From: Pseudomonas sp. B21-028
GTDB lineage: Bacteria > Pseudomonadota > Gammaproteobacteria > Pseudomonadales > Pseudomonadaceae
Direction of reading: 5' to 3'
Length of the DNA: 64,000 bases
NCBI RefSeq assembly: GCF_024749045.1
Contig: NZ_CP087184.1
Location: forward strand, 6,200,001 to 6,264,000
Position numbers and translations under genes: made by a program. Numbering within the stretch: the first letter of the stretch is position 1; each line of letters begins with the position of its first letter. The notes below the pieces were generated by a model. The model worked only from the letters and a program-made list of their open reading frames with translations. It did not search any database and was not told the origin of the DNA. Of the stretch, positions 7,892-38,117 are shown one piece after another.

Positions 7892-9801
7892 CAGGACAGC
7901 GCCTCCAGCTCCGCTTGCAGGGTTTCCAGTAATTCCAGGGCTTGCATCCACGCCTCCTCAAGCTCCGCTTCCCGAACCTTCAGCCGGGCCTGTTCGGCCA
8001 GCAGATCGCGCAGTTCATCCTTGCGCGCTGCCTCGTAGAGACCACTGTCCCCGAGGCTGGTTTCGATTTGATGCAGTTTTTCATGCAGCTTGCCCAGCTC
8101 GGACTCGAGCTTGTCAGCCTCGCGCTTGTGCGGCGCCAACTGCTGTCGCAAGGCAGCGGCGGCCTGGCGCTGAGCTTTCTTGTCGGTCTTGTCCGGGTTC
8201 ACGGGTGTAGTGCTGACCGGCGCATTGCGCTGACGGTAGTCCACCAGCCAGCGTGCATAGTCTTCGAGGTCGCCGTCGAACTCTTCGACCTTGCCGTCGG
8301 CCACCAGGAAGAAATTGTCCGTGGTGCTCTTGAGCAGATGTCGATCGTGAGACACCACCAGCACCGCCCCACTGAACTCTTGCAAGGCCATAGTCAAGGC
8401 CAGGCGCATTTCCAGGTCCAGGTGGTTGGTCGGTTCGTCGAGCAAGAGCAGGTTAGGCCTCTCCCAGGCGATCAAGGCCAGGGCCAGCCGTGCCTTCTCG
8501 CCACCGGAGAAATTCAGCACCGGCTCGTCGATGCGCGCGCCCCGGAAGTCGAAACCGCCGAGGAAGTCACGCAAGGTCTGTTCGCGTTCGGTCGGCGCCA
8601 GGCGCTGCAAGTGCAACAACGGACTGGCCTTGGCATCGAGGGAATCCAGCTGGTGCTGGGCGAAATAGCCGACCACGGTGTTCTCGCCACGGGTCAGGCG
8701 CCCGGCCAGGGGCTGGAGTTCACCGGAGAGGTTCTTGATCAGGGTCGATTTACCGGCACCGTTGGGACCCAGCAGACCGATCCGCGCACCGGGCGTCAGC
8801 TGCAGCTTGACCTTCTCCAGCACGGTCTTGTCGCCATAACCCAGTCGCGCATCGGACAGGTCGATCAACGGGCTGGAGATCTTGGTGGACTCGCGGAAGA
8901 CGAAATCGAACGGCGAATCGACATGGGCTGCGGACAGCTCCTCCATCCGTTCCAGCGCCTTGATCCGGCTCTGGGCCTGACGGGCCTTGGTGGCCTGGGC
9001 CTTGAAGCGGGCAATGTAGCTTTCCATGTGCGCACGCTGCGCCTGCTGCTTCTCGTAGGCCTGCTGTTGCTGGGCCAGACGCTCGGCACGGGCACGCTCG
9101 AAAGCCGTATAGCCGCCGCGATACAGGACGAGCTTGCGCTGATCGACGTGAGCCACGTGGTCCACCACCGCGTCGAGGAAATCACGATCGTGGGAGATCA
9201 GCAGCAGCGTGCCCGGGTAACTCTTGAGCCAGTCCTCGAGCCAGATGATGGCGTCGAGGTCCAAGTGGTTGGTCGGCTCGTCGAGCAGCAGTAGATCCGA
9301 CGGGCACATCAAAGCCTGCGCCAGGTTCAGGCGCATCCGCCAGCCGCCGGAGAAATCCCCGACCTGGCGATCCATCTGTTCGTTGGTAAACCCCAGGCCG
9401 GCGAGCAGTTTGCGGGCGCGGGCATCGGCGGTATAACCGTCTGCGCTGTCGAGTTCCGAATGCAATCGGGCCAGAGCGGCGCCGTCGTGAGCCGCTTCGG
9501 CGACAGCCAGGTCGCGTTGAACCTGACGCAGGCGTATATCGCCGTCGAGCACGTAGTCCACCGCCAGGCGTTCGAGGGTATCGACCTCCTGGCGCATATG
9601 GGCAATACGCCAGTCGGCGGGCAGCGAGCAATCGCCGGAGTCCGGGTGAAGCTCGCCCCGCAACAAGGCGAACAGGCTCGATTTACCGGCGCCGTTGGCA
9701 CCGATGAGGCCGGCTTTATGGCCGGCGTGCAGGGTCAGCTCGGCGTCTTCTAGCAGACGTTGCGGGCCACGTTGTAAAGTCAGGTTCTGAAGTCGGATCA
9801 T
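7891..9801 (-). CDS. ABC-F family ATPase (YheS/Uup-like)
   Basis: This 636-residue soluble protein has two ABC ATPase domains and no membrane segments. Domain 1 has Walker A GANGAGKSS (residues 34-42), signature FSGGWRMRLNLAQAL and Walker B LLLLDEPTNHLDL. Domain 2 has GPNGAGKST, FSGGEKARLALAL and the same DEPTNHLDL. A charged ABC-F linker (about 240-310) separates them, and a coiled-coil tail with many Glu/Lys/Gln follows. ABC-F proteins act on the ribosome. The start MIRLQNLTLQRG at 9801 is the family start; an in-frame extension to 10062 has no family resemblance. It is followed by the channel gene with overlapping stop and start. Confidence 0.92.
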   Translation of the reverse strand: MIRLQNLTLQRGPQRLLEDAELTLHAGHKAGLIGANGAGKSSLFALLRGELHPDSGDCSLPADWRIAHMRQEVDTLERLAVDYVLDGDIRLRQVQRDLAVAEAAHDGAALARLHSELDSADGYTADARARKLLAGLGFTNEQMDRQVGDFSGGWRMRLNLAQALMCPSDLLLLDEPTNHLDLDAIIWLEDWLKSYPGTLLLISHDRDFLDAVVDHVAHVDQRKLVLYRGGYTAFERARAERLAQQQQAYEKQQAQRAHMESYIARFKAQATKARQAQSRIKALERMEELSAAHVDSPFDFVFRESTKISSPLIDLSDARLGYGDKTVLEKVKLQLTPGARIGLLGPNGAGKSTLIKNLSGELQPLAGRLTRGENTVVGYFAQHQLDSLDAKASPLLHLQRLAPTEREQTLRDFLGGFDFRGARIDEPVLNFSGGEKARLALALIAWERPNLLLLDEPTNHLDLEMRLALTMALQEFSGAVLVVSHDRHLLKSTTDNFFLVADGKVEEFDGDLEDYARWLVDYRQRNAPVSTTPVNPDKTDKKAQRQAAAALRQQLAPHKREADKLESELGKLHEKLHQIETSLGDSGLYEAARKDELRDLLAEQARLKVREAELEEAWMQALELLETLQAELEALS

Positions 9802-9851
9802 AATGGCGGCGGAGTCTACCAGCTTCGCTCGCAACTGGCGCGAGTAGCACG

Positions 9852-10316
9852 ATGTCCTCTGACCTGTGGAATTTCTCTCTCGACCTCTATGCCCGGCCCG
9901 GCGTGGAGCAAAGCTGCCTGGCATTGCAAGAGGCCGGCGCGAGCGTCTGCCTGCTGCTTTGCGGCCTGTGGCTGGAACAGCGCGGCGTGGCCTGCGATGA
10001 ACAACGACTGCAACAACTCCGGCAGTTGGCAGAGCCTTGGGACAAAGAGGTGGTACAGCCATTACGAACGCTTCGCACCCAATGGAAAGCGGATGCCGTT
10101 CAAGACCCGGACCTCACGCACCTGCGCGAGCAGGTCAAGAAACTGGAGCTTGAAGCCGAACAGTGTTTGTTGGAGCGATTGGAGGCAGTGGCTGCACGTT
10201 GGCCTGAGGGCCAACAGAGCGATTCAGCGCAATGGCTGCAAGAACTGGCGGCGAGTGCCGGACCAGCGAACCGCGACGCGCTGCATCAACTGCGCGTCGC
10301 GGTCTCCAGCACTTAG
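9852..10316 (+). CDS. TIGR02444 family protein (DUF2390)
   Basis: This 154-residue, mostly helical protein opens MSSDLWNFSLDLYARPGVEQSCLALQ.., the TIGR02444/DUF2390 pattern found next to the ABC-F gene in pseudomonads. No catalytic motif is evident and the function is unknown. It is divergent from the ABC-F gene (50-base gap) and convergent with algP, whose stop codon overlaps its own by 4 bases (10313-10316). Confidence 0.85.
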   Translation: MSSDLWNFSLDLYARPGVEQSCLALQEAGASVCLLLCGLWLEQRGVACDEQRLQQLRQLAEPWDKEVVQPLRTLRTQWKADAVQDPDLTHLREQVKKLELEAEQCLLERLEAVAARWPEGQQSDSAQWLQELAASAGPANRDALHQLRVAVSST

Positions 10317-11491
10317 GAAGCGCTGGTTGGGGTGCTGGTGCTCGGCGCAACGGAGGCGGATGGGCTGACCGTCGAAGCCGGAGTGCTGGCGGCTGGAGCA
10401 GGGGTCGCTGTCGAGGCCGACGAAGCAGGCTTGGCGGCAGGCGCAGTCGCGGGTTTGGCAGCGGCTGGCTTTTTCACAGCGGGTTTGGCTGCTGGCTTGG
10501 CAGCGGGTTTGGCAGCAGCAGGTTTCGCTGCCGGTTTTGCAGCAGCAGGTTTTGCAGCGGCAGGCTTGGCGGCAGCAGGCTTGGCGGCGGATTTGGCCGC
10601 GGCGGGTTTAGTTGCAGCCTTGGCGGGCGCTTTGGCAGCGGCTGGCTTGGCAGTTACAGCAGGTTTAGCGGCAGCGGTTTTCGTCGCTGCGGGCTTGGCC
10701 GCAGCCGCTTTTGTCGCCGCTGGCTTGGCCGCTGGCTTCGCTGCGACAGCTTTTGCAGGGGCTTTGACAGGGGCTTTGGCAGCAGGCTTGGCAGCCGCAG
10801 TTTTCGACGCGGCGGGTTTGGCGGCGGCTGCTTTTTTAGCGACCGGTTTCACAGCAGCTTTCGCAGCAGGCTTGGCGGCCGCTGTTTTTGCAACAGGCTT
10901 GGCGACAGCTTTGACAGCCGGTTTTTTGGCCGCTGGTTTAGCAGCGCTGGCAGCGACTGGTTTAGCCGCAGGCTTGCTCGCCGCTTTGGCCGGTGCTTTC
11001 GCGGCAGGCTTGGCAGTTGCCTTGGCCGGTGCTTTTGCCACAACGGGTTTAGCTAGCGGTTTTTTGGCCGATACAGCGGCAGGCTTGGCAGCACGAAGCG
11101 TCAGCGCCTTGCCGGCAGCTTCTTGCACGCGACCCACACCCTGGGCCAGCTTCAGGCTTTCCTGGGCATCACGCTTGAGTTGCAGAATGTAGGCGCGGGT
11201 TTCGGATTGACGATCCTTCAAGGCATCGAGCAGGTCTTCGAGTTCTTTCACGACGTCCTTGGCCTTGGCTTGTGCCTTGGCCTTGCCGGCGGTAGCCGCG
11301 TCTTGCAGTTTGGTGCGCGACTTGTGCAGTTTTTCCTGCGCCTTGCCGCGTTGTTTTTCCAGTTTGGCGAGCAGTTTTTCAGCATCAGCCAGGGCTTGGG
11401 AGCAGGCGTTTTCCAAATGCTCGAGCAAGGCGCCCGAGAGTTGTTGGAGCAAGTGCAACGGAGTGTTTACAGGCTTCTTGGTGGCCGACAT
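10313..11491 (-). CDS. algP: AlgP (AlgR3), histone H1-like alginate regulatory protein
   Basis: This 392-residue protein has two parts. Residues 1 to about 135 are helical and charged (LLQQLSGALLEHLENACSQALADAEKLLAKLEKQR..). The remainder is an extremely Ala/Lys/Pro-rich tail of KPAA-like tetrads ending in a Ser/Thr/Pro/Ala stretch. This is the AlgP architecture, in which the tail resembles eukaryotic histone H1, binds DNA and influences algD expression in P. aeruginosa. GGAGG lies 5 bases before the ATG. The gene is flanked by the FKBP and algQ genes as in P. aeruginosa. The repeat region is a likely hot spot for length variation. Confidence 0.93.
   Translation of the reverse strand: MSATKKPVNTPLHLLQQLSGALLEHLENACSQALADAEKLLAKLEKQRGKAQEKLHKSRTKLQDAATAGKAKAQAKAKDVVKELEDLLDALKDRQSETRAYILQLKRDAQESLKLAQGVGRVQEAAGKALTLRAAKPAAVSAKKPLAKPVVAKAPAKATAKPAAKAPAKAASKPAAKPVAASAAKPAAKKPAVKAVAKPVAKTAAAKPAAKAAVKPVAKKAAAAKPAASKTAAAKPAAKAPVKAPAKAVAAKPAAKPAATKAAAAKPAATKTAAAKPAVTAKPAAAKAPAKAATKPAAAKSAAKPAAAKPAAAKPAAAKPAAKPAAAKPAAKPAAKPAVKKPAAAKPATAPAAKPASSASTATPAPAASTPASTVSPSASVAPSTSTPTSAS
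10332..11092 (-). repeat. Degenerate KPAA-coding tandem repeat of algP
   Basis: This stretch is dominated by 12-bp units coding Lys-Pro-Ala-Ala and variants, visible on the plus strand as repeated ggcttggcagc/gcaggtttggc words. Low complexity leaves long open frames on the opposite strand that are not genes. Confidence 0.85.
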
Positions 11492-11682
11492 GGTTTACCT
11501 CCTGACTGACGTGAGTGCGGCTCATACTAGACCTCTGCTACAACCGCCGCTAGGGCATGTTGACAGTACACAGGACGTTGCGTTGCAAGAGACAAAAAAT
11601 CTTCTGCGCCATTGCCGGAGCAATCTCACTTCGCGGCAATCGGCGCAGGCATAATTCCTCCATTCGAGCCCGGAGAGCACAC

Positions 11683-12348
11683 ATGTCGCGTCACCTGTTT
11701 TTCCTCCTGTGCATGGTTTGCTCCATGGTCCAGGCCGTAGAAAAAACCGGCGCAAACGATGCCCACGACCTGGCCTACAGCCTGGGCGCGAGCCTGGGTG
11801 AGCGCCTGCGCCAGGACGTACCCGACCTGCAGATCCAGGCATTGGTGGAAGGGCTGCAACAGGCCTATCAGGGCAAGCCACTGGCGCTCAAGGATGAACG
11901 CATCGAGCAGATCCTGGCCAAGCATCAGGCACAGCTGAGCGCGCAATCGACGACACCACAGATAGAAGTGGCGCTGAAGAGTGAGCAGAAGTTTCTCAAC
12001 GAAGAAAGAAACCGGCCAGGTGTGAAACAGTTGGAAGACGGCATCCTGCTGACGGAGCTCAAACCTGGTAATGGGGTGAAAGCCGGACCCCACGGTAAGG
12101 TGCAGGTGCTGTACACCGGTCGCTTGCCCGACGGCACCGTGTTCGACGCCAACCACCAGGCGCAATGGTTCAGTCTCGACAGCGTGATCGATGGCTGGCG
12201 CAGCGCGTTACCGCAAATGCCCGTAGGCGCGAAATGGCGACTGGTGATTCCTTCGACCCAGGCCTATGGCGCCGAAGGGGCCGGGGATGTGATTCCGCCG
12301 TTCACGCCACTGGTGTTCGAGATCGAGTTGCTGGGTGCGACGAGCTGA
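11683..12348 (+). CDS. FKBP-type peptidyl-prolyl cis-trans isomerase (FkpA/Mip-like), periplasmic
   Basis: This 221-residue protein has a signal peptide (MSRHLFFLLCMVCSMVQAV..), an N-terminal dimerisation region (DLAYSLGASLGERLRQDVPDLQIQALVEGLQQAYQGK) and a C-terminal FKBP domain (GKVQVLYTGRLPDGTVFDA, LPQMPVGAKWRLVIPSTQAYG, PPFTPLVFEIELLG). It should catalyse prolyl isomerisation and chaperone envelope proteins. The start at 11683 is chosen because it gives the signal peptide and has a GGAGA-type site upstream; an upstream in-frame ATG at 11557 has no signal sequence. It sits between algP and algQ as in P. aeruginosa and is followed by a strong bidirectional terminator. Confidence 0.9.
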   Translation: MSRHLFFLLCMVCSMVQAVEKTGANDAHDLAYSLGASLGERLRQDVPDLQIQALVEGLQQAYQGKPLALKDERIEQILAKHQAQLSAQSTTPQIEVALKSEQKFLNEERNRPGVKQLEDGILLTELKPGNGVKAGPHGKVQVLYTGRLPDGTVFDANHQAQWFSLDSVIDGWRSALPQMPVGAKWRLVIPSTQAYGAEGAGDVIPPFTPLVFEIELLGATS

Positions 12349-12365
12349 CATCGCCCAAACGAAAA

Positions 12366-12394
12366 ACGGTGCGCAATGCGCACCGTTTTTTTTT
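12366..12394. terminator. Bidirectional Rho-independent terminator
   Basis: A nine-base-pair stem ACGGTGCGC / GCGCACCGT with an AAT loop is followed by nine T on the plus strand and preceded by five A, so it can stop both the FKBP gene (+) and algQ (-). Confidence 0.92.
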
Positions 12395-12404
12395 AGCGAA
12401 ACCA

Positions 12405-12863
12405 TCAAGCCTGAACGGCCGCCTCTTCCTTATGGGCGTTGTGCAGCACCTCGATCAGACAGTCCTCCAGCTCGAAGCGCTCGTGCAGCAGGCCACCCAG
12501 CTCCTTGAATTTTTCCGCTACGCATTTGCCTTCATCGCACAGGTCATTGAATGCCAGCAGCTTCTCGGTGATGACGTCGATGCGCGGGTAGATCTGTTCG
12601 GCAAGCTCCAGGCCACGCTTGTCGTTGAAAGCCTTGGCCTCGCCGGTGAGTTGCTCGTAGATCTCGAAATGCCCGGCAGAGACATAGTCCACCAGCACAC
12701 CGCAGAATTCCTGCAACGGCTTACGGCTTTCACCTAACGCTTCAGGTTTGTCACCGAGAGCATCATAGGCCCGAACCAGTTCGTGACGCTCCTGCAACCA
12801 GCGATCGATCAGCAGATGCACCCCACCCCATCGTTCCTGAGCATTCTGACAACTTTCGAGCAT
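12405..12863 (-). CDS. algQ: Anti-sigma-70 factor AlgQ (Rsd family)
   Basis: This 152-residue helical protein has the Rsd/AlgQ pattern ([62 protein letters not shown] end). The family binds region 4 of sigma-70 and shifts RNA polymerase toward alternative sigma factors; in P. aeruginosa AlgQ affects alginate and siderophore genes. It converges with the FKBP gene on a shared terminator. The upstream 174-base gap to dsbB presumably holds its promoter. Confidence 0.92.
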
Positions 12864-13037
12864 GGCGATTTCTTCCCTTGTGAGTCATGCCCCTCGCAGC
12901 CTGCATATACCTTGATGATTCATGGCAAGCCGGACACAACATATCGAGCGGCATAATTCCAATGATACGTGCGGGCCAGATTATGCCCGCACGACAGCCG
13001 CTTCAAGGTACGCAGGCGACAAAGTTCATACAAGTGT

Positions 13038-13568
13038 TTAATCCGCTACCCGGACGAATTGCGACGCCTTGTCGCCCAGCGGTCGGATCAGAGCGGTCCA
13101 GACAAGGCGAAGCAGCAGGTAGGTCATGGCAATGGATACGGCGAGAAAAAACAGCAGGCTCCATTCGGGGATGCTCAGGTCGAACAATGTCCAGGTGACA
13201 CCCTCACAATCGACCGCGCCGTCGAGGACGTGCTGCATGGCACTCCACCATGAGCTTGCGCCCTTCATTTGGGTCAGGCAATCGGGCGAATGGCTTTGCA
13301 ACAGAACCTGACGCCAGGCCAGAGCCATTCCTCCCGACACGAAAACCAGTCCCGTCACACCGTAGAGGATGCTGCCCTTTCGACCCGGGCCATGTATGCA
13401 GGCCGCGAGACCGTTCACCAGGAACAGCACCAGGCACAAACGCTGCAAGACACATAGGCTGCAAGGCGTCAGACCGACTGCGTACTCCAGATAGCTGGCG
13501 ATGCCCAAAGCCAGGGCCGCGGCGGCGGAAGCCATGAAAAACAAGAAGCGAGAGCAAGCCAAAGACAT
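13038..13568 (-). CDS. dsbB: Disulfide bond formation protein B (DsbB/DsbH)
   Basis: This 176-residue inner-membrane protein has four transmembrane helices. The quinone-linked CxxC is visible as TPCSLC (Cys36, Cys39), and the second periplasmic pair is Cys97 (SPDC) and Cys121 (AVDCEG). It reoxidises DsbA and passes electrons to ubiquinone. It lies between algQ and the hem genes, matching PA5256 (dsbH) of P. aeruginosa. It is monocistronic in appearance, with a 290-base gap to hemY upstream. Confidence 0.92.
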   Translation of the reverse strand: MSLACSRFLFFMASAAAALALGIASYLEYAVGLTPCSLCVLQRLCLVLFLVNGLAACIHGPGRKGSILYGVTGLVFVSGGMALAWRQVLLQSHSPDCLTQMKGASSWWSAMQHVLDGAVDCEGVTWTLFDLSIPEWSLLFFLAVSIAMTYLLLRLVWTALIRPLGDKASQFVRVAD

Positions 13569-34864: not shown

Positions 34865-35125
34865 ATGCTTGCCCCCAAAGACCTGCTCGACGCCCTCAGC
34901 GGCCACGCTTCCCGCCTCTTGAGCGGCGACACTCCGCTGCCCAAAAGCGAAATCGAAAGCCAGTTCAAGGCGCTGCTGCAAAGCGGCTTCAGCAAGCTGG
35001 ACCTGGTGAGCCGGGAAGAATTCGACAGTCAGATGGTCGTGCTGACCCGTACCCGGGCGCGGCTGGAAAGTCTGGAGGCGAAGGTGGCGGAGTTGGAGGC
35101 TCGGCTGGCTCCAGCGCAGGAGTAA
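34865..35125 (+). CDS. ubiK: Ubiquinone biosynthesis accessory factor UbiK
   Basis: This 86-residue protein is of the UbiK/YqiC (BMFP) family: an amphipathic N-terminal helix (MLAPKDLLDALSGHASRLLSG) and a long coiled coil (LDLVSREEFDSQMVVLTRTRARLESLEAKVAELEARL). It forms a complex with UbiJ and supports aerobic ubiquinone synthesis at the membrane. Between glnK and comM it occupies the usual pseudomonad position. Its 3' end is 20 bases from the convergent kinase gene. Confidence 0.93.
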   Translation: MLAPKDLLDALSGHASRLLSGDTPLPKSEIESQFKALLQSGFSKLDLVSREEFDSQMVVLTRTRARLESLEAKVAELEARLAPAQE

Positions 35126-35145: not shown

Positions 35146-36423
35146 TCAACCACCCGCTGCGTGCAGGGATTGCTCCTGATCAACGGCTATCGGCAGTTCC
35201 AACGCAAACAAGGCTCCCTGCCCAGGCCCGGCACTCTGTACGGTCAGTTCACCGCCCATTTCATGGGCCGCCAGGATGCAGCTGTGCAGGCCGAAACCGT
35301 GGCCGTCGACGCGTGTCGTGAAGCCGTGCTCGAACAGGCGGGGAAGATTGTCCATGGAGATGCCCTCGCCGTTGTCCTCGACCTCGATCCGTACGCGCTT
35401 GTCGTCAACGGCCCTCAGACGCAGGGTGATCCGGGACGGGCGATCCGTGACCGGATCGAGCGCCTGTTTGGCGTTGTTGATCAGGTTGATCAATATCTGC
35501 AGCACCTTGTGCTTATCCAGCGCCATGATCGGGATGTCGTTGAGCTCCTTGACCAGCGTCACCTGATGGCGGGACAGGGACACATGGCAGATGCGCACCA
35601 CATCCTCGATCAACTCTCGCAACGAGCCCGACTCCAACACGCTGGAGTTGCCGGCATAGGACTGCTGGGTGGCGACGATTTCCTTGATATGGTCGATGCT
35701 CCTGGTCAACTGCGCCAACTCGTTGATCATGCTCTGCTGCTCGATGGCCAGTGACTCGGCCAGCTTGCCGAGATAGTTCGGCAATGCGCGACCTTTTGGG
35801 TTGCTGCTGAAAAAATCGCCGAGATCATCGGAATGCTCCTTCATCAATTGAACAACCTTGGCGACCCCCTGCCCTTTGGATGTGTGCACTTTGTCGTACA
35901 GGACCTGGGCCGACACATTGACGCTATTGAGCACGTTGCCCACATTATGCAGCACATTCGTGGCGATTTCCGCCATGCCGGCCCGGCGTGCCGTAGTGAC
36001 CAGTTCGGCCTGAGCCTCGCGCAACTCATCGTTGACCCGGGCCATTTGCTGCGGGCTGGGGATCTTCAGGGCTGCGGGCACCAGCCGGACCAGCAGGATG
36101 GCGGTAATCACCGAAGCAACCGCGGTGATCACCTTAACCAGCGCCGACAGCCAGTAGTAGGGTTGCCAGATGGTCAGGATTTCCATCACATGGCTGGTCC
36201 CACAGGCCAGGATGAAGACGCCGAAGGCCGCCAACATCCAGTCGAAAGGCACGTCCTTGCGCTTGTGGATAAAGTAGATGAGCGTAAAGGGAATGGTGAC
36301 GTAGGAGAAAGTGATCAGCCCGTCCGCAATCACGTTGGTCCAGAGCAGATCCGGGCGCCACAGATAGCAATGCCCGTGGGGCATGAAGCGGTTATCGGTC
36401 AACAGCGCCAGCAGATCGTTCAT
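35146..36423 (-). CDS. Sensor histidine kinase with ethylene-receptor-type membrane domain
   Basis: This 425-residue kinase has three N-terminal membrane helices (about residues 30-115) matching the ethylene-binding domain of plant ETR1. Asp34, Tyr41, Pro45, Ile71, Cys74 and His78 sit at exactly the spacing of ETR1 Asp25, Tyr32, Pro36, Ile62, Cys65 and His69, of which Cys and His bind Cu(I). It is preceded by PHGHCYLW, a motif I associate with bacterial members. A coiled linker leads to a DHp helix with His159 in ATNVLHNVGNVLNSV, then an HATPase domain (LINNAKQAL, EDNGEGIS, GHGFGLH). No response regulator lies next to it. The ligand may be ethylene, copper or another small molecule; only the binding-site chemistry is supported here. 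Confidence 0.85.
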   Translation of the reverse strand: MNDLLALLTDNRFMPHGHCYLWRPDLLWTNVIADGLITFSYVTIPFTLIYFIHKRKDVPFDWMLAAFGVFILACGTSHVMEILTIWQPYYWLSALVKVITAVASVITAILLVRLVPAALKIPSPQQMARVNDELREAQAELVTTARRAGMAEIATNVLHNVGNVLNSVNVSAQVLYDKVHTSKGQGVAKVVQLMKEHSDDLGDFFSSNPKGRALPNYLGKLAESLAIEQQSMINELAQLTRSIDHIKEIVATQQSYAGNSSVLESGSLRELIEDVVRICHVSLSRHQVTLVKELNDIPIMALDKHKVLQILINLINNAKQALDPVTDRPSRITLRLRAVDDKRVRIEVEDNGEGISMDNLPRLFEHGFTTRVDGHGFGLHSCILAAHEMGGELTVQSAGPGQGALFALELPIAVDQEQSLHAAGG

Positions 36424-36623: not shown

Positions 36624-38117
36624 ATGTCGCTCGCCATTGTCCATAGCCGCGCCCAGGTGGGGGTGGAGGCTCCCGCCGTTACCGTAGAGGTCCATCTTGC
36701 CAATGGCTTGCCGTCGCTGACGATGGTCGGTCTGCCAGAAGCGGCGGTGAAGGAAAGCAAGGACCGGGTGCGCAGCGCGATCATCAATTCGGGGCTGAAC
36801 TTCCCGGCGCGCCGCATCACCCTGAACCTGGCGCCGGCGGATCTGCCAAAGGACGGCGGGCGGTTCGACCTGGCCATTGCCTTGGGGATCCTGGCGGCCA
36901 GCGTGCAGGTGCCGACCCTGACGCTTGACGACGTGGAATGCCTCGGTGAACTGGCATTATCCGGCGCCGTAAGACCTGTGCGCGGGGTATTGCCCGCAGC
37001 ACTGGCCGCACGCAAGGCCGGACGCATGCTGGTGGTACCGCGGGCGAATGCCGAGGAAGCTTGCCTGGCGTCGGGCCTGAGAGTGATCGCCGTGGACCAT
37101 CTGCTTGAAGTGGTGGCGCACTTCAACGGCCACGCTCCGGTCCAGCCTTTCGTTTCGAACGGGCTGCTCTCGGCCAGCAAGCCCTACCCCGACCTGAATG
37201 AAGTGCAAGGCCAGGTCGGTGCCAAGCGTGCCTTGCTGATCGCTGCCGCCGGCGCGCACAACCTGCTGTTCAGCGGACCACCGGGTACCGGCAAGACACT
37301 GCTGGCCAGTCGTCTGCCGGGACTGCTGCCGCCATTGGCCGAGAGCGAGGCCCTGGAGGTCGCGGCGATCCAGTCGGTTGCCAGTTGCGTGCCCTTGAGC
37401 CATTGGCCGCAACGCCCTTTTCGCCAGCCCCATCACTCGGCATCCGGTCCGGCGCTGGTCGGTGGAGGATCCAAACCCCAGCCGGGCGAGATCACCCTGG
37501 CCCATCATGGCGTGTTGTTTCTGGATGAATTGCCGGAGTTCGACCGCAAGGTACTGGAGGTCCTGCGGGAGCCATTGGAGTCAGGCTACATCGTCGTGTC
37601 TCGCGCCCGCGACCGCGTGCGCTTCCCGGCGCGCTTCCAACTGGTGGCAGCGATGAATCCTTGCCCTTGTGGATACCTTGGCGAGCCCAGCGGCCGTTGC
37701 TCCTGCACGCCCGACATGGTGCAGCGTTATCGCAACAAGCTCTCGGGCCCCTTGCTGGACCGCATTGACCTGCACCTGACAGTCGCACGGGAAGCCACGG
37801 CACTGAACCCCAGGGGCGAATCGGGAGAGGACACGGCCACCGTGGCCGAACAGGTGGCCGAAGCCCGTGAACGCCAGCAAACGCGCCAGGGGTGTGCCAA
37901 CGCTTTTCTGGATCTGCCCGGTTTGCGTCGGCACTGCACGTTATCCACCGCCGATGAAACGTGGCTGGAAACGGCTTGCGAACGGTTGACCTTGTCGCTG
38001 CGGGCCGCCCATCGTCTGCTCAAGGTCGCCCGGACGCTGGCGGACCTTGAGCAAGCGGGCCGTATCAGCCGGGAGCATCTGGCTGAAGCCTTGCAATACC
38101 GACCTGCTACGGCCTGA
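36624..38117 (+). CDS. comM: Mg-chelatase-like AAA+ helicase ComM (YifB)
   Basis: This 497-residue protein has an N-terminal ChlI/Lon-protease-like domain (VEVHLANGLPSLTMVGLPEAAVKESKDRVRSA), a central AAA+ domain with Walker A GPPGTGKTLLASRLPGLLPPL and Walker B GVLFLDELPEF, sensor AAMNPCPCGYLG, zinc-type cysteines, and a C-terminal YifB domain (RAAHRLLKVARTLADLEQAGRIS..). ComM is a hexameric helicase promoting branch migration during natural transformation and recombination. It is preceded by TTTCAAGGAACG. Length is typical. Confidence 0.94.
   Translation: MSLAIVHSRAQVGVEAPAVTVEVHLANGLPSLTMVGLPEAAVKESKDRVRSAIINSGLNFPARRITLNLAPADLPKDGGRFDLAIALGILAASVQVPTLTLDDVECLGELALSGAVRPVRGVLPAALAARKAGRMLVVPRANAEEACLASGLRVIAVDHLLEVVAHFNGHAPVQPFVSNGLLSASKPYPDLNEVQGQVGAKRALLIAAAGAHNLLFSGPPGTGKTLLASRLPGLLPPLAESEALEVAAIQSVASCVPLSHWPQRPFRQPHHSASGPALVGGGSKPQPGEITLAHHGVLFLDELPEFDRKVLEVLREPLESGYIVVSRARDRVRFPARFQLVAAMNPCPCGYLGEPSGRCSCTPDMVQRYRNKLSGPLLDRIDLHLTVAREATALNPRGESGEDTATVAEQVAEARERQQTRQGCANAFLDLPGLRRHCTLSTADETWLETACERLTLSLRAAHRLLKVARTLADLEQAGRISREHLAEALQYRPATA

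Follow-up and report, generated by a model that had tools for sequence, protein, structure and literature searches.

RESULTS

A histidine kinase gene with an ethylene-binding domain

The window, a stretch of 64,000 nucleotides from Pseudomonas sp. B21-028, contains at positions 35146 to 36423 an ORF that a first-pass annotation had called a histidine kinase with a complete ethylene-receptor site. The ORF is present, begins with ATG, and encodes 425 amino acids on the minus strand, a detail that the annotation had not given. The gene, its domains, and the neighboring ubiK- and yifB-like genes are as follows.

35146..36423, minus strand: ethylene-binding-domain histidine kinase, 425 aa (ATG-start ORF; Pfam ETR1_N and HATPase_c)
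36061..36348, minus strand: ETR1_N ethylene-binding domain, residues 26-121 (Pfam), carrying Asp34, Tyr41, Ile44, Pro45, Ile71, Cys74, His78, and Lys97
35653..36006, minus strand: signaling helix and long DHp-like dimerization hairpin, about residues 140-257 (helices 124-181 and 209-257 in a moderate-confidence model; no HisKA match)
35923..35958, minus strand: His box NVLHNVGNVLNS, residues 156-167, with the predicted phosphoacceptor His159 (from the sequence; LHN[VI]GN in 45/45 kinase loci)
35188..35517, minus strand: HATPase_c catalytic domain, residues 303-412 (Pfam)
34865..35125, plus strand: ubiK-like gene, 86 aa, convergent with the kinase gene (from its translation); a neighbor outside the system
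36624..38117, plus strand: yifB-like gene, divergent from the kinase gene; a marker of the conserved site, on the opposite side from glnK in 16 further genomes

A profile search for the ethylene-binding domain, which the first-pass annotation had proposed as a check, placed the N-terminal part of the protein in ETR1_N (PF25487) and not in an unrelated family. The match covered profile positions 2 to 97 of 97 (125.5 bits against a cut-off of 27; E = 1e-36), and the kinase gene was the only one in the window's genome to give such a match. Because of this score, a chance match of the six residues on which the annotation had relied was ruled out. GAF and PAS domains, which had been described as missing, gave no Pfam match at E <= 1, nor did HisKA. 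A structure model of moderate confidence (mean pLDDT 71, pTM 0.44), from which we took helix positions only, put three N-terminal transmembrane helices at residues 24-54, 60-86, and 90-119, in agreement with the hydrophobic peaks, followed by a long helix at 124-181 that bears His159. A sequence search matched the ethylene domain to no solved structure.

The six residues of the annotation (Asp34, Tyr41, Pro45, Ile71, Cys74, and His78) stood where it had placed them, and Ile44 fits the seventh residue of the ETR1 site, which we take to be ETR1 Ile35; the ETR1 numbers beyond D25, C65, H69, and K91 are likewise presumed. The spaced pattern of all seven was found in 1 of the 191 window ORFs of at least 100 amino acids, namely, the kinase ORF. 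Ethylene binding requires seven residues according to the available text of PMC11819568, which also aligns D35, C75, H79, and K98 of AzoEtr1, from Azospirillum brasilense, with ETR1 D25, C65, H69, and K91. The spacing of D34, C74, H78, and K97 in the window protein is that of AzoEtr1 shifted by one, and Lys97 thereby matches the output lysine (ETR1 K91). The seven site residues and Lys97, and likewise His159, Asn160, and Asn163 of the kinase, are invariant in the window protein and 16 relatives.

Purifying selection acts on the kinase gene: when the 16 relatives were compared with it, dN/dS was 0.06 to 0.18 in 15 comparisons, the 16th (Duganella) being saturated at synonymous sites. Decay of the gene was ruled out by these values. 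In one strain, Pseudomonas corrugata DSM 7228 (L039, the same as L143), the frame of the ethylene kinase is broken by an in-frame stop, but full-length versions occur in other sequences of this species (P0001). Judged by its sequence, the 425-aa protein is a genuine ethylene-binding-domain protein. The profile match, the site residues, the selection on the gene, and the relatives all support its identification as a sensor of the ethylene-receptor type, the binding of the ligand itself being predicted. To that extent the earlier interpretation stands; what it said of architecture and of partners needed revision, as described below.

Distribution and genomic site

The closest protein cluster among the 8000 best candidates scored was from P. 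corrugata (96% identity). Named carriers at 83 to 97% identity were P. mediterranea, P. thivervalensis, P. kilonensis, P. brassicacearum, and P. frederiksbergensis, and one close full-length relative outside Pseudomonas, from Duganella sp. BJB480, stood at 65% (both among the best 80 of 341 matches). The ETR1_N domain was found in 20 of 298 sampled Pseudomonas genomes. In 17 of these carriers, the window's genome counted, the gene lies between glnK-like and yifB-like genes, and in the other three (L021, L022, and L023), at 62 to 70% identity, it lies at other sites.

In the window, the flanks hold ubiK-, glnK-, and amtB-like genes on one side and a yifB-like gene on the other, labels that are presumed from characteristic features of these genes and not from a profile search. 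Inspection of both flanks revealed no regulator gene adjoining the kinase gene, as the annotation had claimed. A functional link to glnK-amtB through proximity was rejected as unsupported, because the opposite-strand ubiK-like gene intervenes and the carriers at other sites (L021 to L023) lack these neighbors. Some carriers have additional genes that are absent from the window: an MCP gene adjoins the ethylene kinase in L031 (1645-7347), L037 (2709-8412), and L038 (6251-7912), and L031 and L037 also have a cytochrome c/FAD-SLDH/GMC-oxidoreductase set (Pfam on L031 only). Similar gaps beside the kinase are present in L033 and L035.

Among 369 gammaproteobacterial genomes, 16 had an ETR1_N match at E <= 0.001, 12 of them above the cut-off, the window's genome included. 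The annotation had held the short architecture to be unlike that of many bacterial ethylene-binding-domain (EBD) proteins. Shortness by itself does not set an EBD kinase apart, however: EBD kinases of 411 to 424 aa, with an ordinary HEINTP box, exist in other proteobacteria (L159, L160, L162, and L214, judged by length). Legionella anisa (L197:7965-10472) has the ethylene domain on a hybrid protein that combines a HisKA kinase and a receiver with a further kinase core, of the HNVGN type, at the C terminus.

A kinase family with an HN[VI]GN box and its receivers

The His box, which the annotation had singled out as unusual, is indeed so: NVLHNVGNVLNS at residues 156-167 reads H-N-V-G-N in place of the H-[DE]-x-x-[TN] of HisKA-class kinases, and the protein has no HisKA match. 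Its core (residues 125-425) has three paralogs in the window's genome at 53 to 56% identity, the next match falling to 34 to 37% over part of the core. An LHN[VI]GN box was present in 45/45 kinase loci fetched, these being the stored part of 65 Pseudomonas and 20 gammaproteobacterial kinase matches. With both the box and the core similarity, the ethylene kinase belongs to this HN[VI]GN family. A tree of 52 cores placed the Pseudomonas and Duganella ethylene kinases in one clade with the other Pseudomonas members (support 97/98); the branch order at the base of that clade was unsupported, and the L. anisa core lay outside it on a long branch. Judged by titles, we found no paper on kinases that prints an HNVGN, HNIGN, or HNxGN box.

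The sensors of family members differ. Two of the three paralogs have DAHL sensors. In the third (L067:6339-8255), the N-terminal sensor looks, by eye, like the sensor of a GGDEF-EAL protein encoded nearby in the opposite orientation (L067:10114-12534). Two genomes (G266:C1, ~6843.7-6846.3 kb; G280:C1, ~518.8-521.5 kb) have HNVGN kinases with frames of about 1250 aa at a distance of roughly 0.8 kb from acdS, the gene for ACC deaminase, an arrangement unseen in most other carriers. In Legionella tucsonensis, an HNIGN kinase with 42% core identity to the ethylene kinase has a PAS sensor, no ethylene domain, and, 48 bases away, a receiver protein that carries GGDEF and EAL motifs. In Legionella pneumophila, Lpl0330 is reportedly an atypical sensor kinase that controls a bifunctional cyclase-phosphodiesterase (Lpl0329); compared by description only, that pair of an atypical kinase and a GGDEF-EAL regulator is like the L. 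tucsonensis pair.

One of the three paralogs is directly followed by a gene whose receiver starts NRRILLVDDTPAIHEDFRKIL, and the family of such receivers has the motif NRRIL..DD...IH.DF.KIL (the IHxDF family). The window's genome contains exactly three of them at E <= 1e-8, all within G000:C1:5211722-5219179 and 1 Mb from the ethylene kinase; none stands beside the ethylene kinase here or beside two of its three paralogs. Across 99 Pseudomonas genomes (cut-offs of E <= 1e-50 for the kinase and 1e-8 for the receiver), the kinase core occurred in 38 and the receiver in 39, with both in all 38. The single receiver genome among the 61 without the kinase was G017, where no kinase appeared even at 1e-30. 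With one receiver row per genome (39 rows), a script found a kinase followed by the receiver at a distance of at most 200 bases in 37 of the 38; in the 38th, G092, a second receiver row, read by eye, lies 29 bases from a kinase. These 38 genomes hold 65 kinases, and therefore many of the kinases stand away from any receiver, as here.

A similar association was seen in 274 gammaproteobacterial genomes (E <= 1e-40 for the kinase and 1e-12 for the receiver), of which 11 had the kinase and 19 the receiver; every kinase genome had both, and 8 genomes had the receiver only. The distance between the two was at most 100 bases in 10 of the 11 genomes and 2.3 kb in G515. Fisher p-values were 1e-26 for Pseudomonas and 6e-15 for the gammaproteobacteria, and they overstate the case because they ignore phylogeny. 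At least one such receiver was found in each of the 20 ethylene-kinase genomes, 5 of them covered by the search of the 99 genomes and 15 by a further search. On the strength of these sequence comparisons, the odd His box is the mark of a kinase family with an identifiable receiver family.

A conserved receiver cluster with predicted c-di-GMP enzymes

The three receivers of the window's genome belong to a single cluster.

L068:1702-10062 (G000:C1, ~5211.7-5220.1 kb): five-gene receiver cluster encoding, in order, an RR-PAS-GGDEF-EAL protein, an RR-GGDEF-EAL protein, a cytochrome c peroxidase-like protein, a DAHL-HNVGN kinase, and an RR-HisKA kinase

This order is kept in 19 of 21 Pseudomonas clusters (20 further ones and that of the window's genome), the last gene encoding a HEINNP or HEVNNP kinase; the PAS domain was scanned for in the window's genome only. 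Two clusters, L233 and L234, were each one member short in the output of the motif script, though the receiver search lists receivers there. The script left unreported the RR-PAS-GGDEF-EAL protein of L233 and the RR-kinase of L234 and, in the EAL reading, the RR-PAS-GGDEF-EAL protein of L226. The first 33 residues around the box are nearly identical in the ethylene kinase and in the cluster's own HNVGN kinase.

Of the two GGDEF-EAL proteins, the first keeps GGDEF in all 20 clusters reporting it; its EAL domain has DDFGTE or DDFGTD in 19/19 read, and of these, 8 have an altered EAL triplet (GVQ replaces it in the window's genome), 2 keep the triplet, and in 9 it was not located. The second keeps EAL and DDFGTG but has GSDEF, GADEF, or RSDEF in 21/21, the window's genome having an intact EAL and GSDEF in place of GGDEF. 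These motifs suggest that the cluster combines one predicted cyclase and one predicted phosphodiesterase under the same receiver type. The cluster as a whole has the look of a hub that several HNVGN kinases share.

Ethylene kinases beside IHxDF receivers in two relatives

In Duganella (L157), the ethylene kinase gene (8001-9272) is followed, with an overlap of 4 bases, by a gene for a receiver-PAS-GGDEF-EAL-receiver protein (9269-11971), which keeps GGDEF, EAL, and DDFGTG. A third gene (11992-13401) encodes a receiver-kinase with HEINNP, and both N-terminal receivers belong to the IHxDF family. G148 (L023, one contig) has a single core match at E <= 1e-30, which is the ethylene kinase, and a single receiver match at E <= 1e-12, which is a receiver-PAS-GGDEF-EAL gene whose product keeps GGDEF and EAL and has DDFGTD. 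These genes are convergent, with their 3' ends overlapping by 14 bases, and are therefore neighbors, not an operon. The first-pass annotation had called the window's kinase an orphan. That description holds for its immediate neighborhood but not for its family, which has a receiver family co-occurring with it in 38/38 genomes and, in these two relatives, a receiver-family gene that overlaps the receptor gene itself.

Coupling of this kind is not general among ethylene domains. Of 61 non-Pseudomonas EBD loci (from the best 80 of 341 matches, leaving out 18 Pseudomonas loci and 1 of the 62 others without an EBD frame), 7 had a GGDEF/EAL protein fused or within 300 bases: fused in L210, L212, and L219, adjacent in L157, L159, and L160, and doubtful in L208, because the frames there overlap by 117 bases. 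Such motifs occurred in 13 of the 446 picked ORFs of at least 200 aa at these loci, the seven included. The fused cases, in Paucimonas, a Methylophilaceae genome, and Novimethylophilus, join an ethylene domain to PAS-GGDEF-EAL in one protein. A general rule that ethylene domains drive c-di-GMP was rejected, since only 7/61 loci fit it. We also read 12 further gammaproteobacterial EBD loci and found no HNVGN kinase. Because of these two counts, the pairing of receptor and receiver is particular to this Pseudomonas lineage and Duganella.

DISCUSSION

The reading toward which we lean, with the balance somewhat in its favor, is that the window encodes an ethylene receptor acting on c-di-GMP in trans. 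Three membrane helices would hold a Cu(I) site made up of Cys74 and His78, positioned by Asp34, at which ethylene would bind. Bound ethylene may alter the link from helix 3 (Lys97) to the signaling helix, and the altered link would set the kinase/phosphatase balance at His159 of the HN[VI]GN-type dimerization domain, from which phosphate would be exchanged with IHxDF-family receivers. The partners in the window's genome would be the three receivers of the one cluster at ~5.21 Mb, paired with the kinase in trans. Given the enzyme activities predicted there, ethylene would change c-di-GMP, in one direction or the other, and through it attachment and motility on plants. The wider picture, in which the protein is the sensor arm of an ethylene-to-c-di-GMP circuit and several HN[VI]GN kinases with differing sensors converge on one conserved receiver cluster, may equally well hold or fail.

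Outside support for this mechanism comes from the effect of ethylene on c-di-GMP in Azospirillum, from the Legionella kinases and their regulators, and from the fusions of ethylene domains to PAS-GGDEF-EAL. Several observations count against the favored reading: an Asn, not an acidic residue, adjoins His159; G017 and 8 gammaproteobacterial genomes have the receiver and lack the kinase at the thresholds used; the neighbors of the kinase in carriers L021 and L022 are chemotaxis genes (cheA and an MCP gene), not IHxDF receivers; at the glnK-yifB site no receiver gene stands beside the kinase in any of 17 genomes (the window's and 16 others); a GGDEF/EAL partner was seen at only 7/61 non-Pseudomonas EBD loci, with one doubtful case, and an HNVGN kinase at none of the 12 gammaproteobacterial ones; the G148 genes are convergent; and the co-occurrence statistics take no account of phylogeny.

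The same pathway might serve a signal other than ethylene: the conserved copper site would report copper, redox state, or some other small ligand, and any binding of ethylene would be incidental. Ethylene-domain proteins do occur in metagenome-assembled genomes from groundwater and elsewhere with no evident plant link (among the best 80 of 341 matches), and no match to ACC deaminase in the window's own genome exceeds the family cut-off. We nevertheless regard this alternative as unlikely, because all seven site residues are kept in the 16 relatives, many of the named carriers are plant-associated species, and ACC deaminase exceeds its cut-off in 11/20 ethylene-kinase genomes versus 27/278 genomes without the kinase, a comparison that ignores phylogeny. 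AzoEtr1, with the same spacing, binds ethylene (PMC11819568, in the text available).

Another possibility is that the ethylene kinase works chiefly or exclusively as a phosphatase or a scaffold, acting on receivers phosphorylated by its paralogs. The possibility arises because the Asn beside His159 replaces the acidic residue of HisKA kinases, where, in the published accounts as far as available, that residue activates the His for autophosphorylation and a Thr/Asn within HD/E-x-x-T/N is used for the phosphatase step; in H-N-V-G-N the Asn at +4 is kept. We consider this reading quite improbable. The HN box is found in 45/45 kinase loci and the ethylene kinase is the sole family member found in G148, so that the whole family would lack a kinase. 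Its ATP-binding motifs are, as read from the translation, complete, and in L. tucsonensis the genes for an HNIGN kinase and a GGDEF-EAL receiver protein stand side by side, an arrangement like that of Lpl0330/Lpl0329, where the atypical kinase reportedly controls the regulator. An output to chemotaxis or another pathway instead of c-di-GMP, to which the neighbors in L021 and L022 and the MCP gene at the window's site in L031, L037, and L038 would point, is highly unlikely in view of the kinase-receiver association in 20/20 carriers, the IHxDF-family receivers beside the kinase in Duganella and G148, and the fact that MCPs signal through CheA and not through a separate histidine kinase. Pseudomonads are reported to respond to ethylene by chemotaxis through TlpQ (available text of PMC8515041 and PMC5827301), a likeness that speaks for this output, but TlpQ is a methyl-accepting chemotaxis protein, whereas the window protein is an ETR1_N histidine kinase.

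An ethylene receptor acting on c-di-GMP through HN[VI]GN-type phosphotransfer would differ from the systems known. AzoEtr1, from another plant-associated proteobacterium, resembles the window protein in its ethylene-binding domain and in the residues and their spacing, but according to the available text of PMC11819568 it carries a PAS domain, and its gene is immediately followed by one for a single-domain response regulator; the window kinase has neither, and its core is of the HN[VI]GN type. SynEtr1 of Synechocystis (same source) is likewise a bacterial ethylene receptor with a kinase and a response regulator, but it is also a light receptor and works with a transcriptional response regulator and a small RNA, parts that the window system lacks. 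Plant ETR1 shares the N-terminal domain (Pfam ETR1_N) and the site residues, but its kinase core is of a different family, and it signals mainly without His kinase activity, via a Ser/Thr kinase (PMC11819568).

Putative ethylene receptors in plant-associated proteobacteria are already in print (PMC11819568, in the part available). By title or abstract, we found no printed ETR1-type receptor from a pseudomonad, although supplementary lists or subscription papers may hold an earlier mention, and no work describing the combination of this sensor, an HN[VI]GN kinase, and c-di-GMP; the term "ethylene receptor" is absent from the available text of the P. thivervalensis genome paper (PMC8515041). Bacterial ethylene receptors are thus known, and what is new is the joining of such a sensor to an unusual kinase family whose predicted output is c-di-GMP.

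Few bacterial species have a proven ethylene receptor, and how such a receptor acts on biofilm is an open question: in Azospirillum, both c-di-GMP and biofilm are reduced by ethylene, through a pathway from receptor to response that is unknown according to the authors (PMC11819568, in the text available). The Duganella pair and the single kinase and receiver of G148 offer concrete proteins with which a direct path from ethylene to c-di-GMP can be tested. With a non-HisKA kinase family and its receiver family marked out, orphan members become assignable to a partner. If the favored reading is true, ethylene would join other inputs in setting c-di-GMP in this plant-associated group of pseudomonads.
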